From assembly GCA_017528425.1 (NCBI GenBank), contig JAFXOV010000038.1, positions 1 through 37,776 on the forward strand: a stretch of 37,776 nucleotides of DNA. The letters run 5' to 3'. Numbering within the stretch: position 1 is the stretch's first letter; every line of letters starts with the position of its first letter. Both the position numbers and the translations under genes were made by a program. Positions 3,685 through 37,776 of the stretch are shown here, piece by piece. The notes under the pieces are model-generated. The model saw nothing but the letters and a program-made list of their open reading frames with translations. It ran no database searches and was not told where the DNA came from. The stretch is from Elusimicrobiota bacterium. GTDB taxonomy: Bacteria > Elusimicrobiota > Endomicrobiia > Endomicrobiales > Endomicrobiaceae.

Positions 3685-4392
3685 ATGACAATGTTAAATA
3701 TTTCAGTTGAAGGCGTTTACGAATCCGATACGGGTTCAGGACAAAAACAATATGAGGGTTTTTCTTATACCTTCAAAATATCTAAACCTATCGAAAACGG
3801 TATTAAAACACATATTTTAAGACGTTTTATTCCGTTCTGCATTATGAAGGACAAAAAGAAATCAAGTAAGATATTTTCTCGTGTTCATACATTCGTTATT
3901 ACTGATATTGAAAAAGTCGAAGACAACAAAGGAAGTATTATCGGAAAAGATATTAGAGAAATGGACGATTGGGAAATACAAGACTTGGCTTGTACTTTTG
4001 ACCTCTACGAAGTGCCGTTACCTTGCGTATGCTCAATAACCGAACTTCGTGATAAGGCAACTTTGGCGTATATGAAAAAGATTCTTAAAATCAAAATGGA
4101 TACGCCGAAAGATATTCAACAATTAAAATTCATTAAATTTAATTCCGACGGTTCTTTTAAACTCGATATAAAAGATAAAATTATCGCAAACGTACCGCCG
4201 AATTATTTTGAAAAAATCGAAGTTAAAGAAGACAAAAAAGACTTTTCATACTTCGTAGATAAAATATTCGGAAACAAAAACGCAACTAAAAACGAAAACG
4301 ACAACGACGACGAAGGTTCTGAATTATTTGACAATTTGAATGACTTATCTGACGGAAACGACTTTCCGTCCGAAAATGCTTTATTAAGTTAA
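3685..4392 (+). CDS. Unknown protein between scaffold and major capsid
   Basis: 235 residues, not recognised. The N-terminal two thirds look like a mixed beta domain with alternating hydrophobic residues (SVEGVYESDTG, FSYTFKISKPI). The last 35 residues are very acidic and asparagine-rich and probably disordered. It has its own ribosome site (ATAGGAGTACCAAAA) and lies immediately before the capsid gene. Position suggests a head-associated protein, such as a decoration or a second assembly factor, but nothing in the sequence proves it. Confidence 0.7.
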   Translation: MTMLNISVEGVYESDTGSGQKQYEGFSYTFKISKPIENGIKTHILRRFIPFCIMKDKKKSSKIFSRVHTFVITDIEKVEDNKGSIIGKDIREMDDWEIQDLACTFDLYEVPLPCVCSITELRDKATLAYMKKILKIKMDTPKDIQQLKFIKFNSDGSFKLDIKDKIIANVPPNYFEKIEVKEDKKDFSYFVDKIFGNKNATKNENDNDDEGSELFDNLNDLSDGNDFPSENALLS

Positions 4393-4437: not shown

Positions 4438-5364
4438 ATGACTTATGCTATGTCTGCTGGCTTTAGACAAGCCGAATTATTGGTATTTGAAAAGAACTTT
4501 ATTCGTGTTGCTCAACAAACGGATAGCAAATTACTTGCTACTCCTGCGATACATCACGTTGATATTAAAGGTATTTCAAATATGTCAACTATCGAAAGTA
4601 TTGAACTTACCGAAGTTACGAGTGCAGGCTCTAACCCCGATAAACAATACGCAGAAATGACCGCAAGAAACCGTAAATCAGTTCAAAGAAGATTTACTAA
4701 AACTTATTTGTTCGATGATTACGATAAATGCGTCAACTTAATTACTGACCCGACTTCTGATTTATTCAAGAACTTGGGCGAGGCAAAAAATAGAATGGCT
4801 GACCGTTGTATCGCTGATTCTGCGATTGCCCCTGTTGTTATTGGCGGACCGCAAGAGGCAGGAACAACTTATACCGCAGCACAAGACGGCGTAGTTACTA
4901 TTGCAGGAACAACCGCATTCAACTACTCAACTGTTATTTCGCCTGCTATTACACAATTTGAAAACAATTATATTGATTGTGCAAATGGTGTAACATTGGC
5001 AATATCAGCAAACGAAGAAGAATCTTTGAGAAATGACGACAAGTATATGAATGCTTTGTATTCTAATCAGAATACAGTTGACAAAGGCAAAATTACAAAT
5101 GCGTCGGGATTCAACGTAGTTACTTTCGCAGGTTCTAAAAACGGCGGAACAACTATTACAAATCCGATTCTTAAAGAAAATGAAGGAACTCGTACAAACT
5201 TGTTACTTGCCCCCGATTCAATCGCTTTTGCTCTTGAAATCGGCAGACTTGATTGTACTAAATCCGCTACGAAAGTTAATTCTTGGGAAGTTACTATCGA
5301 TATGTGGGTTAAAGCAGTTCGTAGAGAAGGTAAAAGAGTTATTATTCTTACTTCTACTATATAG
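4438..5364 (+). CDS. Major capsid protein (BPP-1 Bbp17-like, HK97 fold expected)
   Basis: 308 residues. The pattern fits the podoviral capsid family that includes BPP-1 Bbp17: an N-terminal stretch on the fate of bound partners (FEKNFIRVAQQTDSKL), then RRFTKTYLFDDYDKC (about 79-93), an insertion with Gly/Thr-rich strands, and a C-terminal end VTIDMWVKAVRREGKRVIIL resembling the P-domain close (WVKAVRREGKRV). Its ribosome site AAGAAAGGAAGAAACT is the strongest in the head block and a strong intrinsic terminator follows (5380-5414), as expected for the most highly expressed virion gene. Confidence 0.88.
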   Translation: MTYAMSAGFRQAELLVFEKNFIRVAQQTDSKLLATPAIHHVDIKGISNMSTIESIELTEVTSAGSNPDKQYAEMTARNRKSVQRRFTKTYLFDDYDKCVNLITDPTSDLFKNLGEAKNRMADRCIADSAIAPVVIGGPQEAGTTYTAAQDGVVTIAGTTAFNYSTVISPAITQFENNYIDCANGVTLAISANEEESLRNDDKYMNALYSNQNTVDKGKITNASGFNVVTFAGSKNGGTTITNPILKENEGTRTNLLLAPDSIAFALEIGRLDCTKSATKVNSWEVTIDMWVKAVRREGKRVIILTSTI

Positions 5365-6052: not shown

Positions 6053-8707
6053 ATGAGAACGGGAATACCTAAAAATAATTTTTCTTCGGGTCAAATTGAC
6101 CGTGATACGAAAGGACGTTACGACCTTCCGTTATATCAATACGGACACGAATTATCAAGAAACTTTTTTCATACAATTAAAGGCGATTGTTATTATAGAA
6201 CGGGCTTTGAATTTCTTGACGAAATCGGGCTTTCTGCTTTGTATGAATTTAAGTTTAGTCAAGAACAAGCGTACTTGCTTGTCTTCCGTGTGCAATATAT
6301 AGAATTTTGGTCGTACAACGAAAACGGCGAACTTGTTAGAGTTCTCGACGGGAACGGAAACGAATATACTCTCGTACACCCTTACGGAACGGAAGTATTC
6401 AATTTGTGTATGACGCAGAATTGCGACGTTCTATATATTACGCATAGAAACGGCGAATTTCCCGAATATCAATTAAAAAGAACCGCAAGTAATCAATTTG
6501 AACTTAATAAAACAATTTACACAAATACGGGAACGGCAAGTCTTTCGAGCAACTCTGCTACGGAAAATCACGGATTCCCTTGTAGTTGTGCATTTTATGA
6601 AAACAGGCTTAATCGCTGTTCTTCTACAAAATTTCCGACATATCTTTACGGGTCAAAGGGTGGCGACTACAACAATATTACAGTAGGAACAGGAACGAAC
6701 GACGGCTATCAATTCGACTTGGCAGAGGCAAACTCAAAAGCATTGTGGCTTATGTCGGGCGTAAACTCTTTACTTGTAGGAACGGCAGAAGGTATTTTAA
6801 CCGTAAACGGCGGTAGTGTTACGACGGCAATATCACCCGAAGACATAACCGCTAAATTGTCGTGCCGTGACGGAGTGTCTAACGTACTTCCGATTCATAA
6901 AGACAACTTTGTATTTTTCGTTTCAAGCAATTATCGTCTTTTATATATGTTTGAATATGATGTACTTTTGGAACAATTTAAAAGTACAAATCTTTCAAAG
7001 GGTAATTATGAAATTACAAAAGGCGGTATATCTAAACTTGCTAACAAGTTCGATAGATTCGGCTTATTGTTTGCAGTATGCAACGGGCGTCTTCTTTCGA
7101 TATGTTTTTCTAATGATGAGGCGGTTAATGCTTGGTCTGAATTTATTACCGAAGGGCGATTCATAGATATTTGCACGGTAACACGACCCGACGGCAATTT
7201 TGATTTATTCGCTAATATCAAAAGAACCGTAAACGGTATTACACGTTATTACCTTGAACGCTTGACCGAAACTGTCGAGTTCTCACGTTTTGAAGATTTT
7301 GTATCAGAGATTCCCGAAGACGCTACGGAATTGACAATACAAGAAATGGAACAAGAAGACAAAGACGCTTTTAATAGAAAAGTTGCAGAAGAATTAAGAG
7401 ATTGTAACTATCTCGATTGCTCTATGAAATATTCGGGATTGCAAAATAAAAACATTTCGTACGATTCCGAAACAGGAGTAATGAGCCTTAATATTGAAGA
7501 ATACATAAGAAGTATTTATCAAGGCGAATTTACTAACCGTGAATTGTCTAACGGCTTTATAAAGATAACTTTTGCCGACGATATTGTCGGGGCAAACGGG
7601 GCAGAAACAAAATATATCGGCGTATATTCCGATTCCGTTGCGACTTCTGCCGATGAAGTGCCGATAGGTGCAAACTTATATAAAGTTATCAGCAAAGATA
7701 TTTACAACGATAAATATGTTAATACAACCGCTAATGCTATTACGGTTAACGGAACGAGATATAATTCAATTAATTTAAGCACATTATGTAAAGTCTTTGA
7801 CGGCAAAGAATCAGATACAAACAAACTGTATTATACGGGAAGTTTATCGAACAATAAACTTCTTTATTATCCATATACCGATTTTAACGGAAATACTTAT
7901 ATGTTGTATGTCGGTAAAATTACCGCTTTAAATACAAATAAAAAGACCGTTACAATTAATGCCGATAAAATTACGCCTTCCGAAAATTATTATATGGGCG
8001 AAGTTTTAGAATTTGATATTGACAATTCTGAAATCAATATCGGTTATTACGAAGACGCTTTCAAGTCTTCCGATATAGGAAAAAGAATTTGGTATAAATC
8101 AAAAACAGGCAGAGAATACGGAATATTCGATATAACAGGATTTATCGACAATTACCACGTTCAAGTAAATCAAGTTCTTGAACCTACAAGCGATAGTTGC
8201 GACGAATGGTATTTATCAGCGACTTACTTTACGGGGCTTGAACACTTGGAAGGCGAAACAGTTGCTGTCGTAGGTAATGGTGGTTATATCGGCGATTTTC
8301 TCGTACAAGACGGACAAATCGATATATCAAACGCACAAACAAACAAAGTAGGTTCGGCAATAATCGGGCTTAAATATAAAGGCGTTTTAAAAAGCGTCAA
8401 TCTCGGTTTAATGTTGCAAGAAACTCAAACTTATACAACCCCGAAAAGTATTTATAAAATGGGATTCGGTTTTAGTTTTTCGGCAGGCGTGAAAGTCGGC
8501 GATAGTCTTTACAAACTAAACGACGTTCAAGACTTTAACCCCGACGGATTGTTTGATACTCCGCCTTTGCCTATGGACGATTATCGAGAAGTTAATTTTT
8601 CAAGCAACTACGAACGGGACAAATATTACTATGTCGTTCAAGATAGTCCGTTGCCTTGTCATTTAACATCTATTATACCGTACGCAAAACAAGTTATTAA
8701 AACATAA
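6053..8707 (+). CDS. Tail tubular protein B-like (T7 gp12-like) tail nozzle
   Basis: 884 residues. The N-terminus NNFSSGQIDRDTKGRYDLPLY, with the conserved pairing of F-x-G-G/S-x-x-x-x and R-x-D-L-x-x-Y, then NFFHTIKGDCYYRTGFEFL, is typical of the nozzle and stabilisation protein family. Beta-propeller-like repeats follow (for example the region around residues 210-260 with ALWLMSGVNSLLVGTAEG). It starts 3 nt after the gp11-like gene. In T7 the hexameric nozzle closes the tail and carries the fibres with gp11. Confidence 0.85.
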   Translation: MRTGIPKNNFSSGQIDRDTKGRYDLPLYQYGHELSRNFFHTIKGDCYYRTGFEFLDEIGLSALYEFKFSQEQAYLLVFRVQYIEFWSYNENGELVRVLDGNGNEYTLVHPYGTEVFNLCMTQNCDVLYITHRNGEFPEYQLKRTASNQFELNKTIYTNTGTASLSSNSATENHGFPCSCAFYENRLNRCSSTKFPTYLYGSKGGDYNNITVGTGTNDGYQFDLAEANSKALWLMSGVNSLLVGTAEGILTVNGGSVTTAISPEDITAKLSCRDGVSNVLPIHKDNFVFFVSSNYRLLYMFEYDVLLEQFKSTNLSKGNYEITKGGISKLANKFDRFGLLFAVCNGRLLSICFSNDEAVNAWSEFITEGRFIDICTVTRPDGNFDLFANIKRTVNGITRYYLERLTETVEFSRFEDFVSEIPEDATELTIQEMEQEDKDAFNRKVAEELRDCNYLDCSMKYSGLQNKNISYDSETGVMSLNIEEYIRSIYQGEFTNRELSNGFIKITFADDIVGANGAETKYIGVYSDSVATSADEVPIGANLYKVISKDIYNDKYVNTTANAITVNGTRYNSINLSTLCKVFDGKESDTNKLYYTGSLSNNKLLYYPYTDFNGNTYMLYVGKITALNTNKKTVTINADKITPSENYYMGEVLEFDIDNSEINIGYYEDAFKSSDIGKRIWYKSKTGREYGIFDITGFIDNYHVQVNQVLEPTSDSCDEWYLSATYFTGLEHLEGETVAVVGNGGYIGDFLVQDGQIDISNAQTNKVGSAIIGLKYKGVLKSVNLGLMLQETQTYTTPKSIYKMGFGFSFSAGVKVGDSLYKLNDVQDFNPDGLFDTPPLPMDDYREVNFSSNYERDKYYYVVQDSPLPCHLTSIIPYAKQVIKT

Positions 8708-14200: not shown

Positions 14201-17200
14201 CGTACACGAGTTCGCACATTGGTATTTAGATTCTTTAATCGAAGACGCTAAATATCACGAGGCGTCTGCCGACGATTTGGCGGAAGTTAGAAAGTTCGTT
14301 AAAAACAACGGTGAAAACTTTACCCGTGAACAACACGAAAAATTTGCCCGTGGATTTGAGGCATACATACGAAGTGGTCGTGCAAGGTCTAATCGTCTTA
14401 AAAAGATTTTTGAAGACTTCAAAAATGCTCTATTACAAATTTACGATACAATTACGCAGATTATCTATACCGAAGAAGGTGTAGAAAAACCGTTTACGGA
14501 AGAAGACTTACCGCAAATAAACGCACTCTTTGAACGTCTATTGACTACCGAAACCGAAAGAATCAGAGCAACGGTATTCGATAAAGTAAACGAAATTGAA
14601 GAACAAATAAATAAAATCAAGGAAAACGAGCAAAAAGAGTTCGACGAACTTGATACGATTTACAAAGATAATATCGAAATTTTAAACCGTAAATCCGACA
14701 AAAGAAGAAAAGTTGAAGAATATCTCGACTTGGCTATCCGTTCGGCTCGTCGTGAAACAAAAGAAGTTAAAGAGTGGAAGAAAAGATATAAAAATGCTAC
14801 GCTTGATATTCTATCCGCTATTTCGGGCAAACCTCGTAATTGGGTTGCAAATAGTAGGAATTGGGAAAAGTTAAGCGAATTAGTAGGAAATGCCGACGAT
14901 AAGATTACAACGTCGGGCGGTCTTCGTGCGGAATGGCAGGACTTCTACGCTGATACGGGCGTAAGTTATGATAACGACGAAATTGACGGCGATTACAAAT
15001 TAGGCGAACAAGCGTTACAAAAACTTATCGACGGTAATTTTAATCCGCCTCGTGCCGATGAGGCGTATTGGGCTGACGTTGAATATTTCGCAGGACAATT
15101 CGATTATTTGGCAAAGAAGGTTCGTTCTCTCAAAGGGGAAGAACAACAAGTCGCATACGAGGCATTAATAGAAGTGCTGTTCAACAAAGCACCCGAAATG
15201 CCCGAAGGCATTTATTCGGAATTTGTTAATAACTTTATGAAACTTTCGGAAGATGTTGAAGAAATCAAAAAAGAAGACTTCAACCGTAAACACTATCCGA
15301 ATATTCCTGTTGTTCAACAATTACAATTCTACGTTACAAATAAATTGAATGACCTTCGTATATATAATCCCAAAATGAGATATAAAACCCGTCTTGATAG
15401 GTCGCACGGGCTTTATAAATCTATTAAGAATGCAACGTCTGTCAACGATACAAAAAGAATCGTTAAGAAAATTAATGACTTTGTTATCGAAGACTTACGC
15501 AACGGTCAACGTGCAATCTTGAATAAAGAGATTCAAAAACAATTAAAAATCAATTCTAAACTTGTGAAAGTCGGAAGTATAAAAAGAGGAAAATTTGATT
15601 GGCGTACTAATACCGTTTTTGCGGAATTGTCGCAAATGAATAAACTTTCAAGAGAAGACGCACAAGCACAATATGACGAAGTAATGAAAATAAACGAAAT
15701 TGAGGCAGGCGAAGAACGTATCGATTGGAAAACGGGTACGGACGACTTATCGGAAACTTTTGATACTGATTTTCAAAATAATTTAAAACGTAAATTTTTG
15801 CAATACAAAAGTTCGCGCTTGAAAAATTTAGACGTTAGACATACTGAATCTTTATTAGAAGACATATTAAAATTGAAGTTTGAAGGACGCAGAGCAAAGG
15901 ACGAAGAAGACTTCAAAAAACGTACTGAACGATTAGATTATAGAAATAATCTAATACAAATTCTTGACGCTAACAAAGACAATAAAGCGGTTAAATTCTT
16001 CGCTAATTGGGTTGTTAAGTCGGGAACTCTTACAAATTGGGAAACTCTTTTAAATACCGTCTTTAATGCTGAAACTGCGGAAAAATATTCGTTACAACGT
16101 CTTGAATCACAAGTACAAGTTTTCGCAAGAAATAAGACGCTTGAACTCATTAACAAGGCAAATAAAATCTACGGATTCAATAATAACAAATGGGATAAGG
16201 CGTTAGACTATGACGGAATGCAGAAGTTTATAAAACTTATGCAGGACTACGAAAACGAAACATACGATTATTCGGAAGTTACTTGGAATAAAGAAACACG
16301 AGAGGCGGTAAAAACGGGCTTGAAACTTTCAAAGGCTCAAATTATGACGCTTTATATTTGGTGTCAAAATGACGATTTGTTCCAAAGGTTGAATAATCAA
16401 TACGGATTAGAGCAATTAAAAGATATGTTTTCACGCTTGACCGAATCAGATAAGGATATGTGTTTAGAGTTCATAAATGTTTGCGAAAGTATGTACGACG
16501 ATATGAACGAAGTTTATATCAATACATACGGCATATCATTACCGAAAGTCGAAAACTACTTCCCGTCGGTTACGGAACGTGTCGGTTCTGACTTGGATAT
16601 GTTCCACGATTTCGTTGTGAAATCTTCTAACCCGTCATTCATAAAGACGAGAAAAGTTTGCAATAAAATCCCGATGAAACCGAAATCACCGTTAGAAATA
16701 ATTTTACCGCATATTAACAAAAGTGCGAATTATATTTTAACGAGTGAAACTGTAAATTTCTACAATAAAATTTTTAAAGAAACTCCGTTAAACAAAAAGA
16801 TTGTAGATATTTACGGCAAAAAAGACGGCGAAAAAATTGTAAGAGCAATACAGAATCAACTGTCCGCCTCAACCTTTACAACGGTTGCAAGAGGGCTTAC
16901 GTTTGCTCACGAGTTCGCAGACAATCTCGCAACTAACTTCATATCATCAAGTATTGCAGGGTCGCCAAAAGTTATGTTTGCACAACTTTTGTCTTGTATT
17001 AACTATTCTGAAAAAATGCCCGTTCACGAATGGGCGAAGGGTTTTGCGAAGGCGATTGCAAATCCTAAAAAGACTTTTGAATATATGTTGTCTAATTGCG
17101 AATATCTGCAAGCACGTTTAGCAGGAAATACACAAAATGAAATGATGTCAACTCTTACAAGTGAAGTTGATAGGTTTAGAACAATAAAGAACTTTTGCTC

Positions 17201-18065: not shown

Positions 18066-19775
18066 ATGGCAAACGAAGTTGATTTTAGACCGCTTAAATA
18101 TCTTTGCAACGGTACAACGAGAGATTTCCCGTTTGAGTGGAAAATACTTTCCGTCGATGAAGTTGTGGTAATTTTAGAAACAATCGCAACGGGCGAACAA
18201 ACAACCTTACAATTCCCGAACGATTATAGCGTTACCTTTGAATCTACGGGCGGTCAAGTTACTACAAAAACCGCTTACGCAAGCGAATATGATATTATTA
18301 TTTCTCGTCAAAGTTCTTTGTATCAGAAGAAAAGATATTCAACAAGTACGGGTTTTCAAGCAAGCGAAGTTGAAAAATCTTTCGACGAAGTATCAATGAA
18401 CTTACAAGAACAGGCGTACACTTTAGAACGTGCGATAAAAGTTCCCGTCGGTTCTTCCGTATTAAATTTGAACTTACCATTACCAAACGCAGGGAAGACG
18501 TTGAAATGGAATGAAGAAGAAACGGGGCTTGTGAACTCTACGATAGACGTTGACGAACTCGAAAGTTATGCGGAAAGATTGTACGAAAGTGCTGATAATA
18601 TCGATATAGTTGCCGACAATATTCTTGATGTAAACGACGTCGCTGATATTATGGACGATGTTACAACTGTTGCAGATATTGAAGGCGAAGTCGTTGACGT
18701 TGCAGGAATAAAAGACAATATCGTTGCAGTTGATAACAACAAAAATAATATTAATGCGGTAGTGTTGAACGAATCAAATATTAATAATGTCGCAGGGAAT
18801 AGAGAAAATATCAACAAAGTTGCAAATATCGACGACGAAGTTGTTGCGGTTGCGGAAATTGACGACGAAGTTATAACCGTTGCGGAAATCGACGACGAAG
18901 TTGTTGCGGTTGCACATAACGAAACAAATATCAATAATTGTTCTAATAATATGTCTTCGATACTTGACGCACCGAATCAAGCACAAACGGCAACGCAACA
19001 AGCAGGAATCGCAACGGATAAAGCGGAAGAAACCGCACTTGCACTTGCAGAGGCAAGACGTATGAAAGATTCTATCGCTTATTTTGAATATATAAAAGCA
19101 GGAAATCTCGACGACGTAAGAGATGTTTATTTAGTCGCAGGAAATCTCGATGATGTAAGAACTGATTACATAGTCGGCGGAACGCTTGACGATATTCGTA
19201 TAAGCCCCGACGAATTGCGTAATTTAAACAAATTACCGTTATTGAAGACGCAAGTTGAAAACAACGAAAATACGCTTAATAAAACAATTACAAGGGTTGC
19301 GAAGAACGAATCCGACATTAAGGATTTGCAGGATAAAGACGATTCTATCGATGTTATATTAGATACGATTAACGGCGATATTGAACAAATTAATACGGAT
19401 ATCGAAGGAATTGAATTAGATATTGACGAACTCGGCGACGGTTTGACAAGTGCCGAAGGACAAATCGGGAAGAATGAATCCGATATAGATGTATTACAAT
19501 TTAAAACCGATTTATTCAATATCATCAAGGGCGGTAGTTTGGACGACGTAAGGATAGTTTACAACGTCGCAGGGAATCTCGATACTTCGAGAACGGATTA
19601 TATCGTCGCAGGAAATCTCGATAGTATAAGCGTTTCAAAAGAGGATTTAAGAAATGCAACAATTATCCCGTTCTTGAAAAATCAAGTAGAAGAACTGACC
19701 GAAAAATTGAATTACGCATTGAACTACATAGCAAGTATTCAATCGGGAATCGTGGTCGGAAGTTTAGATAGATAA
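18066..19775 (+). CDS. Tail fibre, T7 gp17-type N-terminus, repetitive stalk
   Basis: 569 residues. Residues 1-150 match the T7 tail fibre N-terminal (tail-attachment) domain: FRPLKYLCNGTTRDFPFEW, the FPNDYSVTF strand, YDIIISRQSSLYQ, and the coil EVEKSFDEVSMNLQEQAYTLERAI. The rest is a stalk: Asn/Asp/Val-rich repeats (180-300), three 10-residue tandem repeats (256-285), an alanine coiled coil (about 300-335), and a duplicated LDDVR...Y module (345-385 and 489-530) around another coil. There is no obvious receptor-binding head of its own; the next gene probably supplies the tip. Ribosome site AAAGGAGTTGAATT. Confidence 0.85.
   Translation: MANEVDFRPLKYLCNGTTRDFPFEWKILSVDEVVVILETIATGEQTTLQFPNDYSVTFESTGGQVTTKTAYASEYDIIISRQSSLYQKKRYSTSTGFQASEVEKSFDEVSMNLQEQAYTLERAIKVPVGSSVLNLNLPLPNAGKTLKWNEEETGLVNSTIDVDELESYAERLYESADNIDIVADNILDVNDVADIMDDVTTVADIEGEVVDVAGIKDNIVAVDNNKNNINAVVLNESNINNVAGNRENINKVANIDDEVVAVAEIDDEVITVAEIDDEVVAVAHNETNINNCSNNMSSILDAPNQAQTATQQAGIATDKAEETALALAEARRMKDSIAYFEYIKAGNLDDVRDVYLVAGNLDDVRTDYIVGGTLDDIRISPDELRNLNKLPLLKTQVENNENTLNKTITRVAKNESDIKDLQDKDDSIDVILDTINGDIEQINTDIEGIELDIDELGDGLTSAEGQIGKNESDIDVLQFKTDLFNIIKGGSLDDVRIVYNVAGNLDTSRTDYIVAGNLDSISVSKEDLRNATIIPFLKNQVEELTEKLNYALNYIASIQSGIVVGSLDR
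18831..18920 (+). repeat. Three 30-bp tandem repeats in the fibre gene
   Basis: Three in-frame units at 18831, 18861 and 18891 each start GACGACGAAGTT and encode the decamer pattern D-D-E-V-x-x-V-A-E/H-x. They probably extend the stalk and could change length by slippage. Confidence 0.9.
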
Positions 19776-19806: not shown

Positions 19807-20883
19807 ATGACAAACAATGTTGAAGGTATGCAACAATTAGTAGATACCAAAGCAAAATTAACGTCTTACGGAACAGTATTAAAAGACGGTGAAATTATGC
19901 GTTTATCCGACGTTGACCGTGTTACTATCGGCGACGGCGTTACCGCAGGAAAAGACCGCCCCGTATTCTTGGATAGTGAACACGAGGCATACGTTAAAAT
20001 CCTTGACGGGATTTATGAAGGCGTAAACCTTGAACAAAAATTCGCTACGGAAATTGCAGGATATGCAAGCAAGTGGCATTGGCTACAAGCAAGAGCAAGG
20101 GCAAATAATTGGGAAGGAATACACAATTACGACAAAATCACATTACATATGAACGCAGGAACTATAACCGACGGTACAACAAGTTATAACATAACTGCGA
20201 AAGATTTAGTAATGAGAATCGCAGGTATTGACACATTCTACGGATATGGCGATACTGCAAGAGGACATCACGTTACTTTAATTTCTGATTTAACAATCGG
20301 AACTAATATACCGTGGAATCCTACAAACAATAATAACGGTACTGCCGACGAACATTGTTGTTGGTTAGCAAGTGCGGTTTATGCTATATTGAACGGCGTA
20401 AACAATGCGTCAACAAATACTTACGGAAGTACTAAACGTGGATTCGACGCAAGTGCAGGCGGTGTTTTACAATTACTTGACCCCGACGCAGTTGCTTGTA
20501 TGTTGAACCCAAGAGAATATCTGCCCGAAAGATATTCCGCTACTGCAAACTTAACAAGTTCGCCGTCTGCTCGTTGGGTAAATGGTGGTAAATTAAGATT
20601 ACCGAACGAAATAAATGTATATGGTTGCAATATTCATTCTGCCGATAAAGCGTCTGACGGTTGCGATAGAAATACAATGGGTCAATCCGTTCAGTTACCT
20701 ATATTTAGACATACTTGCGGTAATAGAGGATATAGAATTAAAAACCGTGTCGCCTGGTGGCTCGGTAGCCCTGCGTCGAGTTCTTCTTCGAGGGCGTGTC
20801 TTGTCGACACCGACGGGCGTGCCAATGCGGTTGATTGTACTGTTTCGTGGCGTTCCGTTCCGCTCTACTTCGATATTGGTTAA
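19807..20883 (+). CDS. DGR target: receptor-binding protein with C-type-lectin-like variable C-terminus
   Basis: 358 residues. An N-terminal segment (about 20-52: LTSYGTVLKDGEIMRLSDVD then IGDGVTAGKDRPVFL) resembles the small beta domain at the N-terminus of BPP-1 Mtd and hyaluronidase-type tail proteins. The C-terminal 180 residues look like a C-type-lectin/formylglycine-enzyme-type fold, ending in WWLGSP ... VPLYFDIG. The last 40 codons (R314 on) are VR, copied from TR at 21368-21488. The ten template asparagine positions are residues 316, 332, 334, 335, 336, 338, 340, 342, 346 and 349, now A, L, D, T, D, R, N, V, V, R. It follows the tail fibre and has a strong ribosome site (AGAAAGGAGTAAAATT), so it is likely the fibre tip that binds the host. 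Confidence 0.92.
   Translation: MTNNVEGMQQLVDTKAKLTSYGTVLKDGEIMRLSDVDRVTIGDGVTAGKDRPVFLDSEHEAYVKILDGIYEGVNLEQKFATEIAGYASKWHWLQARARANNWEGIHNYDKITLHMNAGTITDGTTSYNITAKDLVMRIAGIDTFYGYGDTARGHHVTLISDLTIGTNIPWNPTNNNNGTADEHCCWLASAVYAILNGVNNASTNTYGSTKRGFDASAGGVLQLLDPDAVACMLNPREYLPERYSATANLTSSPSARWVNGGKLRLPNEINVYGCNIHSADKASDGCDRNTMGQSVQLPIFRHTCGNRGYRIKNRVAWWLGSPASSSSSRACLVDTDGRANAVDCTVSWRSVPLYFDIG
20746..20866 (+). repeat. DGR variable repeat (VR)
   Basis: 121 bp, aligned without gaps to TR at +622. There are 15 differences, all where TR has A (7 to G, 5 to C, 3 to T); the 96 non-A positions are identical. A 45-bp constant block coding WWLGSPASSSSSRAC sits near the 5' end. Beyond 20866 the two copies diverge also at non-A positions (20867 A versus G), marking the 3' homology border where BPP-1-like elements have IMH versus IMH*. 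Confidence 0.97.
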
Positions 20884-20899
20884 TCTTGGAATCTTTACT

Positions 20900-20920
20900 C
20901 CTACCGCCTTGTGCGGTAGG
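20900..20920 (+). other. DNA hairpin/cruciform downstream of VR
   Basis: An 8-bp GC-rich perfect inverted repeat (CCTACCGC, 20900-20907, and GCGGTAGG, 20913-20920) with a 5-nt loop lies 33 bp after VR and 17 bp after the target's stop. In BPP-1 and related elements an 8-bp-stem hairpin just past VR is needed for efficient homing into the target. It is followed by GGTTTT, so it could also act as a weak transcription terminator. Confidence 0.75.
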
Positions 20921-20940
20921 GGTTTTCAAAAAGGTATAAT

Positions 20941-21351
20941 ATGACAAATGTTTTTGAAAGAAATCGAAAAGAAACAAAATTACAATTTTATATAAATGCT
21001 CTTGATTTACAAGTCGAAATAACAAAATATGTAATGCGTGAAAATGTCGTACCGAAAAAATGGCGATACGCAATAGGATATGACTTGATAAGAAAAACTG
21101 ATTGGCTCATTGATTTTATTACAATGGCAAATTCAATTTATCCGACAAATTGGCGAGAAATGTTTTTAAGAAAAATTCTACAAACGCTTGCGATTGCGTT
21201 GTGTTTTAGAATACAAAATAAATTAATCTTAATGGAAAAATGTATAGAAACTGTTAAGATTGAACAAATGGATAGAATTATAGAACTTGTAGTACACGAA
21301 ATGGAATTATTAAAAGCGTGGAAAAAGTCTAACAAAATTATTAAATTATAG
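20941..21351 (+). CDS. avd: Avd, accessory variability determinant of the DGR
   Basis: 136 residues, helical and basic at the C-terminus, with the four-helix-bundle look of Avd: KWRYAIGYDLIRKTDWLIDFI, then a helix with QTLAIALCFRIQNKLILMEK and a final MELLKAWKKSNKIIKL. In BPP-1 the Avd pentamer binds the reverse transcriptase and the DGR RNA and is essential for template-primed cDNA synthesis. Here it lies exactly between VR and TR, as avd does. The ribosome site AAAAAGGTATAAT is directly downstream of the VR hairpin. Confidence 0.85.
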   Translation: MTNVFERNRKETKLQFYINALDLQVEITKYVMRENVVPKKWRYAIGYDLIRKTDWLIDFITMANSIYPTNWREMFLRKILQTLAIALCFRIQNKLILMEKCIETVKIEQMDRIIELVVHEMELLKAWKKSNKIIKL

Positions 21352-21719
21352 GTTGATTGTTGTAAGTCGTGTCAACTGGTGGCTCGGTAGCCCTGCGTCG
21401 AGTTCTTCTTCGAGGGCGTGTAATGTCAACAACAACGGGAATGCCAATGCGAATGATTGTACTAATTCGTGGAATTCCGTTCCGCTCTGATTCAATTTGA
21501 AAAATAAGCGTGTCAAAGTAGCGTAAGCGAAATCGGTGCTTAAATTGAAGGAACAATCGACCTGACGGCTTTTAGCCGTGAATATGTGCCTTGATGTTCT
21601 TTCGGGCGATACGCCGTTAATCGTGCATAGCATACGAATTGTGTATTATAGTTTGTTTTATGCCCGATACTTCGTAGTCAAGGTAATACACATTTCAAAT
21701 TGACTATACAAGGCATATT
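21352..21719 (+). ncRNA. DGR template RNA: TR plus structured spacer
   Basis: A 368-nt gene-free stretch between avd and the RT holding TR (21368-21488) and about 230 nt of spacer. The spacer can fold: TTCAATTT (21491-21498) with AAATTGAA (21542-21549), supported inside by AAGC/GCTT; hairpin ACGGCT-TTT-AGCCGT (21565-21579); and two interleaved stems, TCGGGC (21602-21607) with GCCCGA (21662-21667), and TGTGTATTA (21640-21648) with TAATACACA (21684-21692), a possible pseudoknot. In BPP-1 the TR-containing RNA with its downstream spacer is the substrate for RT-Avd and provides the priming site. Boundaries are approximate. Confidence 0.75.
21368..21488 (+). repeat. DGR template repeat (TR)
   Basis: 121 bp that would read, in the VR frame, RVNWWLGSPASSSSSRAC then N-V-N-N-N-G-N-A-N-A-N-D-C-T-N-S-W-N-S-V-P-L and a TGA. 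It has 25 adenines; 20 of them are the first two bases of ten AAY codons. AAY codons can mutate only to NNY, which encode 15 amino acids and no stop, so the template is optimised for safe diversification. Confidence 0.97.
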
Positions 21720-22838
21720 ATGGGAAGAAGAACAAATAGATATTTAAGACGACAAGAAAAACGGAAAAAGAAAAAGCAAGAATTAATTAATAATAAATAT
21801 AATTATGAAACGGCAATACAATACAGTTCTTTATACAAATCTGCAAACTTGTCGGCAAAGGGCGTAAGGTGGAAGGCAAGCGTTCAAAAATATTTGTTAA
21901 ATATGTTTCCGAATATTGTTCGTGCGAAAAAATCTTTATCGGAAGGTAACGACAAACGGCGTGGATATGTTGAGTTCGATATATACGAACGTGGAAAACC
22001 TCGTCATATAAGAAGTGTATATTTTGAAGATAGGGTAAAAGAAAAATCAATAAGCAGGTTCGCTATTCTTCCGATTCTTTCACATAGTCTTATTTACGAT
22101 AACGGTGCAAGTCAAAAGGGTAAAGGTATGCACTTCGCACATAAAAGACTTGTAAAAATGTTAGCCGATTATTATAGAAAATACGGCAACGAAGGATATA
22201 TTTTATTAATAGATTTTAAAGGATATTTCGATAATATAAACCACGATAAATTAAAGCAATTTGTAAATATTAATTTTGAAGACGACAGGCTTGTAAAATA
22301 CCATAACGACTTTGTTGATTCGTTTGGCAATATCGGTCTTGGGTTAGGTTCGGAAATATCGCAAATAGACGCTATATATTATGCGAATAAAATAGACCAT
22401 TTTATAAAAGAAAAATTAGGCATTAAGGCGTACGGGCGATATATGGACGATAGTTATATCATAAATCCTTCAAAAGATGTCTTAAAATCGATTCTCGACG
22501 CTTTACGAATTAAGTTTAAGGAAGTAGGAATAATTTTGAATCCGAAGAAAACACATATAAGAAAATTGTCTAACGGGTTTACGTTTTTAAAAACACGGTT
22601 TTATATTACCGAAACGGGCGAAATAGTTAGAAAAGCAAGTCGGGAAAGTATAACACGACAACGAAGAAAATTGAAACGTCAAAAGAATTTGAATGATAAA
22701 AACTTATTATCTTATGACGGGATTTATAAAAGTTTTATTTCTTGGATTGGTTCTATGTTGCATAGAAACGCAAGAAGTTCGATACACAATATGTTGATAC
22801 TGTTTAATAAATTATTTGAGAAAGGAGTAAAATTATGA
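21720..22838 (+). CDS. DGR-type reverse transcriptase
   Basis: 372 residues, typical DGR RT length. It copies the TR RNA into adenine-mutagenised cDNA. Order: very basic N-terminus (RRTNRYLRRQEKRKKKK), RT motif with D165 in LIDFKGYFDNINHDKL, the DGR hallmark G-x-x-x-S-Q form LGSEISQ (209-215; group II intron RTs have QG...SP), the catalytic box YMDD at 241-244 followed by SYII, LNPKKTHI (motif D/E) and a C-terminal basic thumb (RESITRQRRKLKRQ). It begins after the TR spacer and its TGA overlaps the next ATG (22835-22838). No maturase or endonuclease domain is present, as expected for DGRs. Confidence 0.97.
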   Translation: MGRRTNRYLRRQEKRKKKKQELINNKYNYETAIQYSSLYKSANLSAKGVRWKASVQKYLLNMFPNIVRAKKSLSEGNDKRRGYVEFDIYERGKPRHIRSVYFEDRVKEKSISRFAILPILSHSLIYDNGASQKGKGMHFAHKRLVKMLADYYRKYGNEGYILLIDFKGYFDNINHDKLKQFVNINFEDDRLVKYHNDFVDSFGNIGLGLGSEISQIDAIYYANKIDHFIKEKLGIKAYGRYMDDSYIINPSKDVLKSILDALRIKFKEVGIILNPKKTHIRKLSNGFTFLKTRFYITETGEIVRKASRESITRQRRKLKRQKNLNDKNLLSYDGIYKSFISWIGSMLHRNARSSIHNMLILFNKLFEKGVKL

Positions 22839-25230: not shown

Positions 25231-25263
25231 TTTGACCGCCTTTCTATTTTGTGAACTACATAC

Positions 25264-25292
25264 AGTATAAACGATATTAGATTATTTGTCAA
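25264..25292 (-). promoter_or_regulatory. Sigma-70 promoter for the leftward 25230-24528 operon
   Basis: On the minus strand TTGACA (25292-25287), exactly 17 bp, then TATACT (25269-25264). Predicted start near 25257, leaving a leader of about 27 nt. Confidence 0.8.
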
Positions 25293-25356
25293 GACATAAA
25301 ATCAAACAAAAGATTTTTTGATATAATAAAGTTAGAAAAAGCAATATGTAAAATAT

Positions 25357-25407
25357 AAAAAAGTATAAGAAAGTATAGAAACTTTACAAAAGTTTTTATA
25401 CTTTTTT
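25357..25407. repeat. Interrupted inverted repeat in the attP region
   Basis: AAAAAAGTATA (25357-25367) faces TATACTTTTTT (25397-25407), with a second AAGTATA copy and AAACTTT...AAAGTTT between. Ts follow on the right. It may be a terminator-like hairpin or protein-binding repeats. Confidence 0.45.
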
Positions 25408-25418
25408 TATTAAAAATT

Positions 25419-25440
25419 GTGCTGAAATTGTGCTAAAAAT
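25419..25440 (+). repeat. Paired 11-mer repeat, left copy (candidate integrase arm site)
   Basis: GTGCTGAAATT followed directly by GTGCTAAAAAT. The same 22 bp, with one change, recurs at 25672-25693. Tyrosine integrases of temperate phages bind such repeated arm-type sites on either side of the attP core. Confidence 0.6.
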
Positions 25441-25463
25441 ATTTTTGATTCACAAAATAAAAA

Positions 25464-25492
25464 GTTTACAATATCGTATAAATATTGTAAAC
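25464..25492. other. Candidate attP core: 11-7-11 palindrome
   Basis: GTTTACAATAT (25464-25474), 7-nt centre CGTATAA, and ATATTGTAAAC (25482-25492). Tyrosine recombinase core sites have two inverted binding sites of about 11 bp around a 6-8 nt exchange region, which this fits exactly. It lies 204 bp upstream of the integrase and between the paired 11-mers. It lacks a T-run, so it is unlikely to be a terminator. Adjacent hairpin GTTGCC/GGCAAC at 25503-25526. Confidence 0.55.
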
Positions 25493-25606
25493 AAAAAGAA
25501 AAGTTGCCATTTTAGCAATCGGCAACATTAAATAAACACGAGGATATTAAGTTTTCGTTATCGGGTAAGTGTGGGGAAGTATATGTAATTATAATAACTT
25601 GAAATA

Positions 25607-25636
25607 TTGACTTTTGCCGTTTGAATGTTTTAATAT
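25607..25636 (+). promoter_or_regulatory. Weak candidate integrase promoter
   Basis: TTGACT (25607-25612), 18 bp, TAATAT (25631-25636). The -10 is poor, so this is tentative. The right paired 11-mer lies between it and the integrase start, allowing autoregulation. Confidence 0.3.
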
Positions 25637-25671
25637 GTTCTTATGTTTTCTTATAGTTTACATAAAAAAAT

Positions 25672-25693
25672 GTGCTAAAATTGTGCTAAAAAT
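25672..25693 (+). repeat. Paired 11-mer repeat, right copy (candidate integrase arm site)
   Basis: GTGCTAAAATT then GTGCTAAAAAT, ending 2 bp before the integrase ATG. It occupies the place where a ribosome site would be; no Shine-Dalgarno sequence is seen there. Integrase bound here could block its own expression. Confidence 0.6.
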
Positions 25694-25695
25694 CT

Positions 25696-26787
25696 ATGAC
25701 AAAAAATATTTATGAAATAAAAAACAAGTACGGCAAGGCATACAAAGTACAAATCCGACACAAAGGGTATAAACCCGTATATAAAACATTCAAAGATTCT
25801 GACCCGAAAAAAGCATTAAAAGAGGCGAAAATATGGGCGGACGATGTTGAACTTGCTATGCGGAAAGGTACATACAAAGAGTTCGCCGACAACGATTATA
25901 ATATCGAATTTATATCGGAACTCATAAACTATTACGACATCGAAGTCGCACGATTCAAATATGCTCACTATGAAAAATATAAAGTTATGTTTGAATGGTG
26001 GAAGAATCAAATAGGACATATACGAGTTAAAGAACTGACCGCCTCGCAACTTACGATATGCAAAAATATTCTCAAAAACGAAAAAATTAAAAAGAAGTCG
26101 GGCGAAGTTCTGCGAAGTCCTAACACGGTTAACAAATATTTAATGTGCCTTTCTGCCGTCTTAACATACGCCGTAAACGAATTAGAATTAATCGAAATTA
26201 ATCCGATGTCAAAAGTTGCTCTAATGGATAAACCGAACGGGCGTACTCGGTTCGGCTCAACCGAAGAAATGGACGCACTAAAAAACGAATGTAAAAACTA
26301 TTCCGATATGATTTATTTGTTTTATGCTCTTTTGTTTAAAACGGGTGGACGATTCAACGAAGTGCGTCATTTGCAAGTAAAAGACATAGACAAAGAGAAT
26401 AACCGTGTTTACTTTCTCGATACAAAAAATCATACGCACCGTAGCGTATATACGGGGGCGGACGTTATGAAACTATTGACCGACTATATGAAAAATCATA
26501 ACATCGAATCGGGGTATATTTTTAAATCAGATAGAAACGGTGTAGAACTTGCGTACATCAAGGGGGCTATGGAAGAATGTATCAAAAATGCAGGGTTGAA
26601 AAACTTTCACATTCACGATATACGACATACGTTCGCCTCAAAAATGGCGGAAGAAGGGGCAAGTTTATTAGAAATTGCAGAAGTTCTCGGACAAAAATCG
26701 CTTACGGTTGCCCGTCTTTATTCGCATTTAACTCGTAAACATACCGAACAATTAGTCGCCTCGGTAATGGATAAGTACGAATTTTAG
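25696..26787 (+). CDS. int: Tyrosine recombinase, phage integrase
   Basis: 363 residues. It joins attP to the host attB. N-terminal arm-binding region about 1-60 (YKVQIRHKGYKPVYKTF), core-binding SAM-like domain about 75-175, catalytic domain from about 190. Catalytic residues: R219 in TGGRFNEV, H307 and R310 in HIHDIRHTFAS, and nucleophile Y342 in ARLYSHLT. The usual second histidine of the LGH box is Q here (LGQKS), a known natural variant. No clear ribosome site; the start is the first ATG after the right repeat. Its stop overlaps the convergent gene by 4 bp. Confidence 0.95.
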   Translation: MTKNIYEIKNKYGKAYKVQIRHKGYKPVYKTFKDSDPKKALKEAKIWADDVELAMRKGTYKEFADNDYNIEFISELINYYDIEVARFKYAHYEKYKVMFEWWKNQIGHIRVKELTASQLTICKNILKNEKIKKKSGEVLRSPNTVNKYLMCLSAVLTYAVNELELIEINPMSKVALMDKPNGRTRFGSTEEMDALKNECKNYSDMIYLFYALLFKTGGRFNEVRHLQVKDIDKENNRVYFLDTKNHTHRSVYTGADVMKLLTDYMKNHNIESGYIFKSDRNGVELAYIKGAMEECIKNAGLKNFHIHDIRHTFASKMAEEGASLLEIAEVLGQKSLTVARLYSHLTRKHTEQLVASVMDKYEF

Positions 26788-37635: not shown

Positions 37636-37776
37636 AACGGCGGTGCAACTTAAAAAATCCGCCTTTTATAAGTTAAAAAAGAAAGGTGGTATAAAAATGG
37701 GTTTATTCGGTGGCGGTACAAGAACAGTTGTACAATCAGCACCGCAACAAGCGGTAAAAGACGAAAAAAAAGATAT
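37636..37776. repeat. Terminal direct repeat, right copy; holds a partial second copy of the first gene
   Basis: Identical to 1-141. The ATG at 37697 is the same start as at 62, cut by the window end, and is not an additional gene. Confidence 0.95.

Follow-up and report, generated by a model that had tools for sequence, protein, structure and literature searches.

The 37,776-nt contig JAFXOV010000038.1 of the Elusimicrobiota bacterium assembly GCA_017528425.1, analyzed here over its whole length and referred to as the window, almost certainly carries a complete diversity-generating retroelement (DGR) of the BPP-1 type, by which a temperate podovirus varies the tip of its receptor-binding protein. 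A target gene ending in the variable repeat (VR) is followed by a hairpin, avd, the template repeat (TR), a structured spacer RNA, and the gene of the reverse transcriptase (RT) (Table 1). An earlier inspection of the letters and open reading frames (ORFs), the sequence-only reading, had proposed such a cassette in BPP-1 order. The ORFs of target, Avd, and RT lie where it had placed them, and each part was found again and is independently supported, although the target fold gave only an unusable model. The DGR is thus genuine and complete, and an ordinary member of a large, well-known group. As DGRs are known in thousands of phages and microbes, it changes little by itself; its value lies in representing, cleanly and in full, a DGR lineage that viral metagenomes often contain and whose spacer RNA is unlike the BPP-1 model.

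Table 1. Features of the retroelement cassette and the gene after it, in window coordinates.
Feature	Position	Strand	Basis
Target gene, Mtd-type receptor-binding protein, 358 aa, VR at C-terminus	19807..20883	+	ORF
Variable repeat (VR)	20746..20866	+	Differs from TR at 15 of 121 sites, each a TR adenine
Adenine-free VR 3′ end, probable equivalent of the initiation of mutagenic homing (IMH) site	20853..20866	+	Identical in TR at 21475-21488
Hairpin after VR, CCTACCGC CTTGT GCGGTAGG	20900..20920	+	Predicted stem, conserved
avd, accessory variability determinant, 136 aa	20941..21351	+	Family, fold, position
Template repeat (TR)	21368..21488	+	25 adenines, 20 in AAY positions 1-2
Structured spacer RNA, Rfam RF03077 RT-2	21504..21736	+	Covariance model, covariation
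DGR reverse transcriptase, 372 aa	21720..22838	+	RVT_1, 8ub7, BPP-1 brt, motifs
Small coiled-coil ORF, 86 aa	22835..23095	+	Overlaps RT stop; homologues after related RTs

Adenine record of the repeat pair and organization of the target gene

VR and TR align without gaps at an offset of 622, and every one of their mismatches falls on a TR adenine. The remaining 96 bases of TR are the same in VR (96/96), so that the coordinates and counts of the sequence-only reading were reproduced exactly. The substitutions from TR to VR comprise seven A>G, five A>C, and three A>T changes; for 15 randomly placed mismatches, the probability that all hit the 25 adenines of TR is P = 6e-13. The same pair was recovered by an independent repeat finder, while the rest of the 2.08-Mb assembly holds no further VR copy. 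Within the AAY codons of the target frame, 15 of the 20 adenines at positions 1 and 2 are changed in VR, as against none of the five adenines elsewhere in TR. AAY codons constitute the codon design of DGR templates, as their A can mutate without a stop codon arising (PMC12875486).

Both repeats end in the same adenine-free stretch of 14 nt, which probably corresponds to the IMH of BPP-1, a role assigned by analogy, and VR-specific sequence follows directly. The right-hand boundary is exact, since the first base beyond the repeat (20867/21489) is a non-adenine mismatch with G in TR and A in VR. Just past the shared end, TR contains a TGA stop in the target frame (21487-21491), where VR reads TAC. 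Likewise, four relatives (L001, L003, L005, and L006; L numbers denote our comparison loci) have TGA in TR and TGC in VR. Thus, VR has kept its own sequence past the shared 3′ end, as expected if transfer stops there; TR-derived sequence extending to the TGA would truncate the target.

The target gene lies directly 3′ of the fibre gene, whose encoded N-terminus matches phage tail-fibre families and bbp9 of BPP-1. In the alignment, the target protein is 34-45% identical to four relatives. Mtd_N (PF18454), the N-terminal domain named for the BPP-1 tropism determinant, is detected in four of the five members of this target family, the window protein being the one without a match. Imperfect repeats of 39 nt within the fibre gene (19089-19637) encode a VAGNLDDVR-type motif.

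The hairpin downstream of VR has a perfect stem of 8 bp, which extends to 11 bp in the predicted fold. Being G+C-rich and followed by GGTTTTC, it might serve only as transcription terminator of the target gene, outside the retroelement. We consider this very unlikely. Of 61 sequences, 57 possess a perfect stem of at least 7 bp no further than 100 nt from VR, compared with 2.5% of shuffles; the loop measures 5-6 nt in 55, and a T-run follows in only four. Because the stem is conserved and so rarely succeeded by a T-run, the hairpin is not merely a terminator. Moreover, BPP-1 requires a stem-loop at the same place for full activity (PMC12875486). In the window and related loci, the hairpin loops tend to start with a pyrimidine and to end in GT or AT (CTTGT, TTTAT, CTTTGT).

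Reverse transcriptase, Avd, and spacer RNA

The RT matches RVT_1 (5e-14) and phrog_1423 (7e-66), and its best solved relative is 8ub7 (7e-15), an entry titled DGR ribonucleoprotein reverse transcriptase. It further matches BPP-1 brt with 24% identity over 279 aa (5e-18; hhalign E 5e-24). The catalytic residues, whose loss would have spoken against the sequence-only reading, are present: YMDD and GLGLGS..SQ are invariant in an alignment of ten RT sequences, and the window RT displays YMDD and LGLGSEISQ. It therefore carries the catalytic YMDD together with the SQ variant of motif 4, as in DGR-type RTs.

The Avd protein is 68% identical to the proteins at the same position in L001 and L010. No Pfam family matches the 136-aa ORF itself, while phrog_3206, 'Avd protein of DGR', is matched by five of the seven members of the Avd family. 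Its predicted structure is a four-helix bundle (predicted local distance difference test score, pLDDT, 87), and a fold search returned S23-type bundles and, weakly, the Avd of 8ub7. In Roseburia phage Shimadzu, a protein of the same length and position is annotated as Avd.

Generic RT models match the window RT weakly, which leaves room for an ordinary duplication that diverged by mutation and selection beside an unrelated RT of a retron, a group II intron, or a defence system. The adenine-only differences and their P value speak against this, as does the presence of Avd and spacer RNA; the RT scores far under the cut-offs of the NCBIfam group II intron and defence RT models, and the same arrangement recurs with other repeats in dozens of loci. 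Taken with these observations, such a duplication is practically out of the question.

The spacer RNA matches Rfam family RF03077 RT-2 over the full model length with 77.1 bits, compared with a gathering score of 40 (E 4.8e-16). In 11 DGR spacers that were aligned without reference to any structure, 12 of 16 consensus pairs covary with compensating changes on both sides. RF03022 Phage_DGR, which finds BPP-1 at 104.7 bits, was not reported for the window in the covariance-model search. As RT-2 occurs here and Phage_DGR in BPP-1, the two curated families appear to mark two DGR lineages.

RT-2 was detected in the window, in 10 relatives, and in 15/15 closer relatives checked later, hence in 26 loci, several of which are near-identical so that fewer are independent. 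In each of the 26, it sits shortly before the RT gene and, wherever a TR was identified, downstream of TR. Five other loci gave no RT-2 match: L004 starts 88 nt before its RT and cannot hold a spacer, and the RTs of L008, L012, L037, and L041 are much more distant. The printed Rfam entry of RT-2 does not mention DGRs; our literature searches found no published link between RT-2 and DGRs.

Compared with the BPP-1 DGR (mtd, avd, TR, brt; NC_005357), the window shares the order of target, avd, TR, spacer, and RT, a homologous RT, and a hairpin after VR, and the phage likewise has a collinear virion module and an integrase. In contrast, the spacer RNA belongs to RT-2 instead of Phage_DGR, the hairpin loop is CTTGT instead of GAAA, and the hairpin lies further from VR; Avd and target are not alignable by sequence to those of BPP-1. 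Closer relatives are L076, L077, L001, and L010, which stem from IMG/VR contigs and a contig of a Gastranaerophilales metagenome-assembled genome (MAG). Their RT is 54-60%, their Avd 54-69%, and, where the contig reaches, their target 43-49% identical to the window proteins, with the same order and an RT-2 spacer. Their TR and VR sequences differ from those of the window, and a different gene follows the RT in L001 and L010. The DGR of Roseburia phage Shimadzu (LR596903) also shares an RT of 50% identity, an Avd of the same length, and an RT-2 spacer (145 bits), but resides in a phage with a contractile-type tail (baseplate J, P2-like genes), unlike the window phage. The Shimadzu DGR is reported to diversify two proteins (PMC11792537).

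In L002-L007, homologues of the 86-aa coiled-coil ORF immediately follow the RT, and L076 has a match as well; after the RT of L001 and L010, none was found. The gene, of about 80 aa, is located at 2015-2260 in L002, 5143-5376 in L003, and 7100-7342 in L005, and in a scan of viral contigs it occurred only beside such DGR RTs. The gene could encode an accessory protein not described before, or could merely be a neighbour in the phage genome.

We tentatively propose, as a possibility somewhat short of even, that the spacer RNAs of phage DGRs fall into two or more unrelated classes. In this view, RT-2 would serve as spacer in a large lineage of phage DGRs separate from that of BPP-1, and this lineage might have a hairpin-loop type of its own and, as partner, the small coiled-coil gene after the RT. 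If the assignment is general, the Rfam model would find such DGRs together with their templates, and RT-2 would offer a second type of RNA for studying how an RNA causes the RT to make errors at adenines.

Proposed mechanism and natural activity

In BPP-1, the spacer recruits RT and Avd, complementary DNA (cDNA) synthesis is primed within the spacer, errors arise at template adenines, and the cDNA replaces VR, helped by the IMH and the stem-loop (PMC12875486). By analogy, a transcript running from the end of avd through TR and the spacer would be made in the window phage. RT and Avd would attach to the structured spacer and reverse-transcribe TR into cDNA, making errors at its adenines, as the BPP-1 biochemistry suggests. 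The mutated cDNA would then replace VR in the target gene, presumably directed there by the hairpin and by the adenine-free 3′ end that both repeats have in common, and because TR stays unchanged, the cycle could repeat. The anatomy of the cassette supports each of these steps by homology or analogy.

Several points weigh against this interpretation. The past mutagenesis of the window's own VR is read from one assembled sequence. Neither Avd nor target has a significant sequence match to its BPP-1 counterpart. For the target, in which VR would be expected to encode a surface of a C-type-lectin fold, the predicted structure reaches a pLDDT of only 43, and the DUF6273 match stays below the cut-off. 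Finally, when folded by itself, the window spacer does not exceed shuffles in stability (z -1.1); the evidence for its structure is consequently comparative.

The wider group provides evidence for activity. A profile scan of IMG/VR identified related RTs in 295 viral loci; the 80 best were kept, 78 of them newly numbered and a few duplicating one another. An adenine-only TR/VR pair was detected automatically in 60 of the 78, always with TR downstream of VR, the order seen in the window; as the detector permits only adenine mismatches within a run, this count describes the pattern and does not test adenine specificity. Contigs that are nearly identical provide a test free of this bias. One such pair, L091 and L092, comes from different metagenomes and shows 17 mismatches in an alignment of 9,270 bp, all of which fall on VR sites corresponding to TR adenines (VR 3898-4020, TR 4626-4748); the TRs of the two are identical. 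Similarly, L131 and L144 share an identical 83-nt stretch of TR, and all 15 differences between their VRs lie at adenine sites, on a background of ~91% identity. Because the VRs of both pairs differ only at TR-adenine sites, the sequence comparisons indicate that the DGR group of the window is active in nature.

For the window's own copy, we infer present activity by analogy, on strong but indirect grounds. The copy could instead have been active once and now be silent, with a VR fixed by selection and no longer rewritten. Only a single sequence of the phage is available, and no near-identical phage was found in an exact-pattern scan of viral contigs for TR or in a nucleotide search of phage records; besides, some pairs of near-identical relatives have identical VRs, and signs of recent activity were seen in 50-75% of surveyed DGRs, not in all (PMC8144416). 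Yet all parts are intact, without a stop or lost motif, and the lack of any non-adenine drift between TR and VR over 96 sites would be unexpected after long silence. In addition, a relative underwent recent adenine-only change (L091/L092), and viral DGRs formed the most active class in the published survey (PMC8144416). We therefore regard a silent element as unlikely and favor a working DGR. The earlier description of the element as active-looking holds in so far as past mutagenesis is recorded in one sequence, but activity is demonstrated only for the relative.

Further arrangements were observed among the comparison loci. L011, a locus of this DGR group in a Clostridia MAG, has two VR copies, one of which lies ~7.8 kb downstream of TR (6649-6749, 7634-7771, 15426-15563). 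In L012, a contig of a Bacilli MAG, an RT and a group II intron lie close to an adenine-only repeat pair of 112 nt with 11 differences (412-523, 737-848, 2230-2454).

Phage genome and probable exchange of the cassette

The window represents the entire contig, and since its ends share an exact repeat of 141 bp (1-141 and 37636-37776), it is most likely a circular phage genome of 37,635 bp. Host flanks are absent from the contig, and the link between phage and genome bin rests on binning. The GC content of the phage (36%, compared with 30-33% for the bin) is compatible with this link but proves nothing about the host. A search for an attachment site with 25231-25700 returned only weak AT-rich matches that are uninterpretable. 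A Gastranaerophilales host, as suggested by L010, was not supported: RpoB of the assembly is 55-61% identical to that of the L010 genome (two main segments), compared with 62-63% to a Clostridia MAG. The assembly contains no 16S gene.

The phage is a distant BPP-1-like temperate podovirus. Seven of its proteins have BPP-1 counterparts arranged in the same circular order, namely portal, two tail proteins, a giant internal protein, fibre, RT, and integrase; among the BPP-1 proteins compared, there was no match for capsid, target, or Avd. A phage single-subunit RNA polymerase was not noticed among the ORFs, although no search was aimed at such a gene. The sequence-only reading had presented the T7-like temperate setting as an addition to what is known. 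This setting is not new, as BPP-1, the prototype of DGRs, is a phage of this kind, with the same virion gene order, an integrase, and a repressor.

By its portal protein, the nearest phage is L044 (75% identity), in which the giant protein and a related fibre N-terminus are kept. After the fibre gene, in place of the DGR target, L044 carries an unrelated ORF of 647 aa (in the region 1342-4460 of L056); its record of 35 kb, which is possibly a fragment, yielded no RT. Because an unrelated ORF occupies this position and no RT was detected, the DGR and its target probably form an exchangeable module, as the presence of an unrelated adhesin in the same place suggests.

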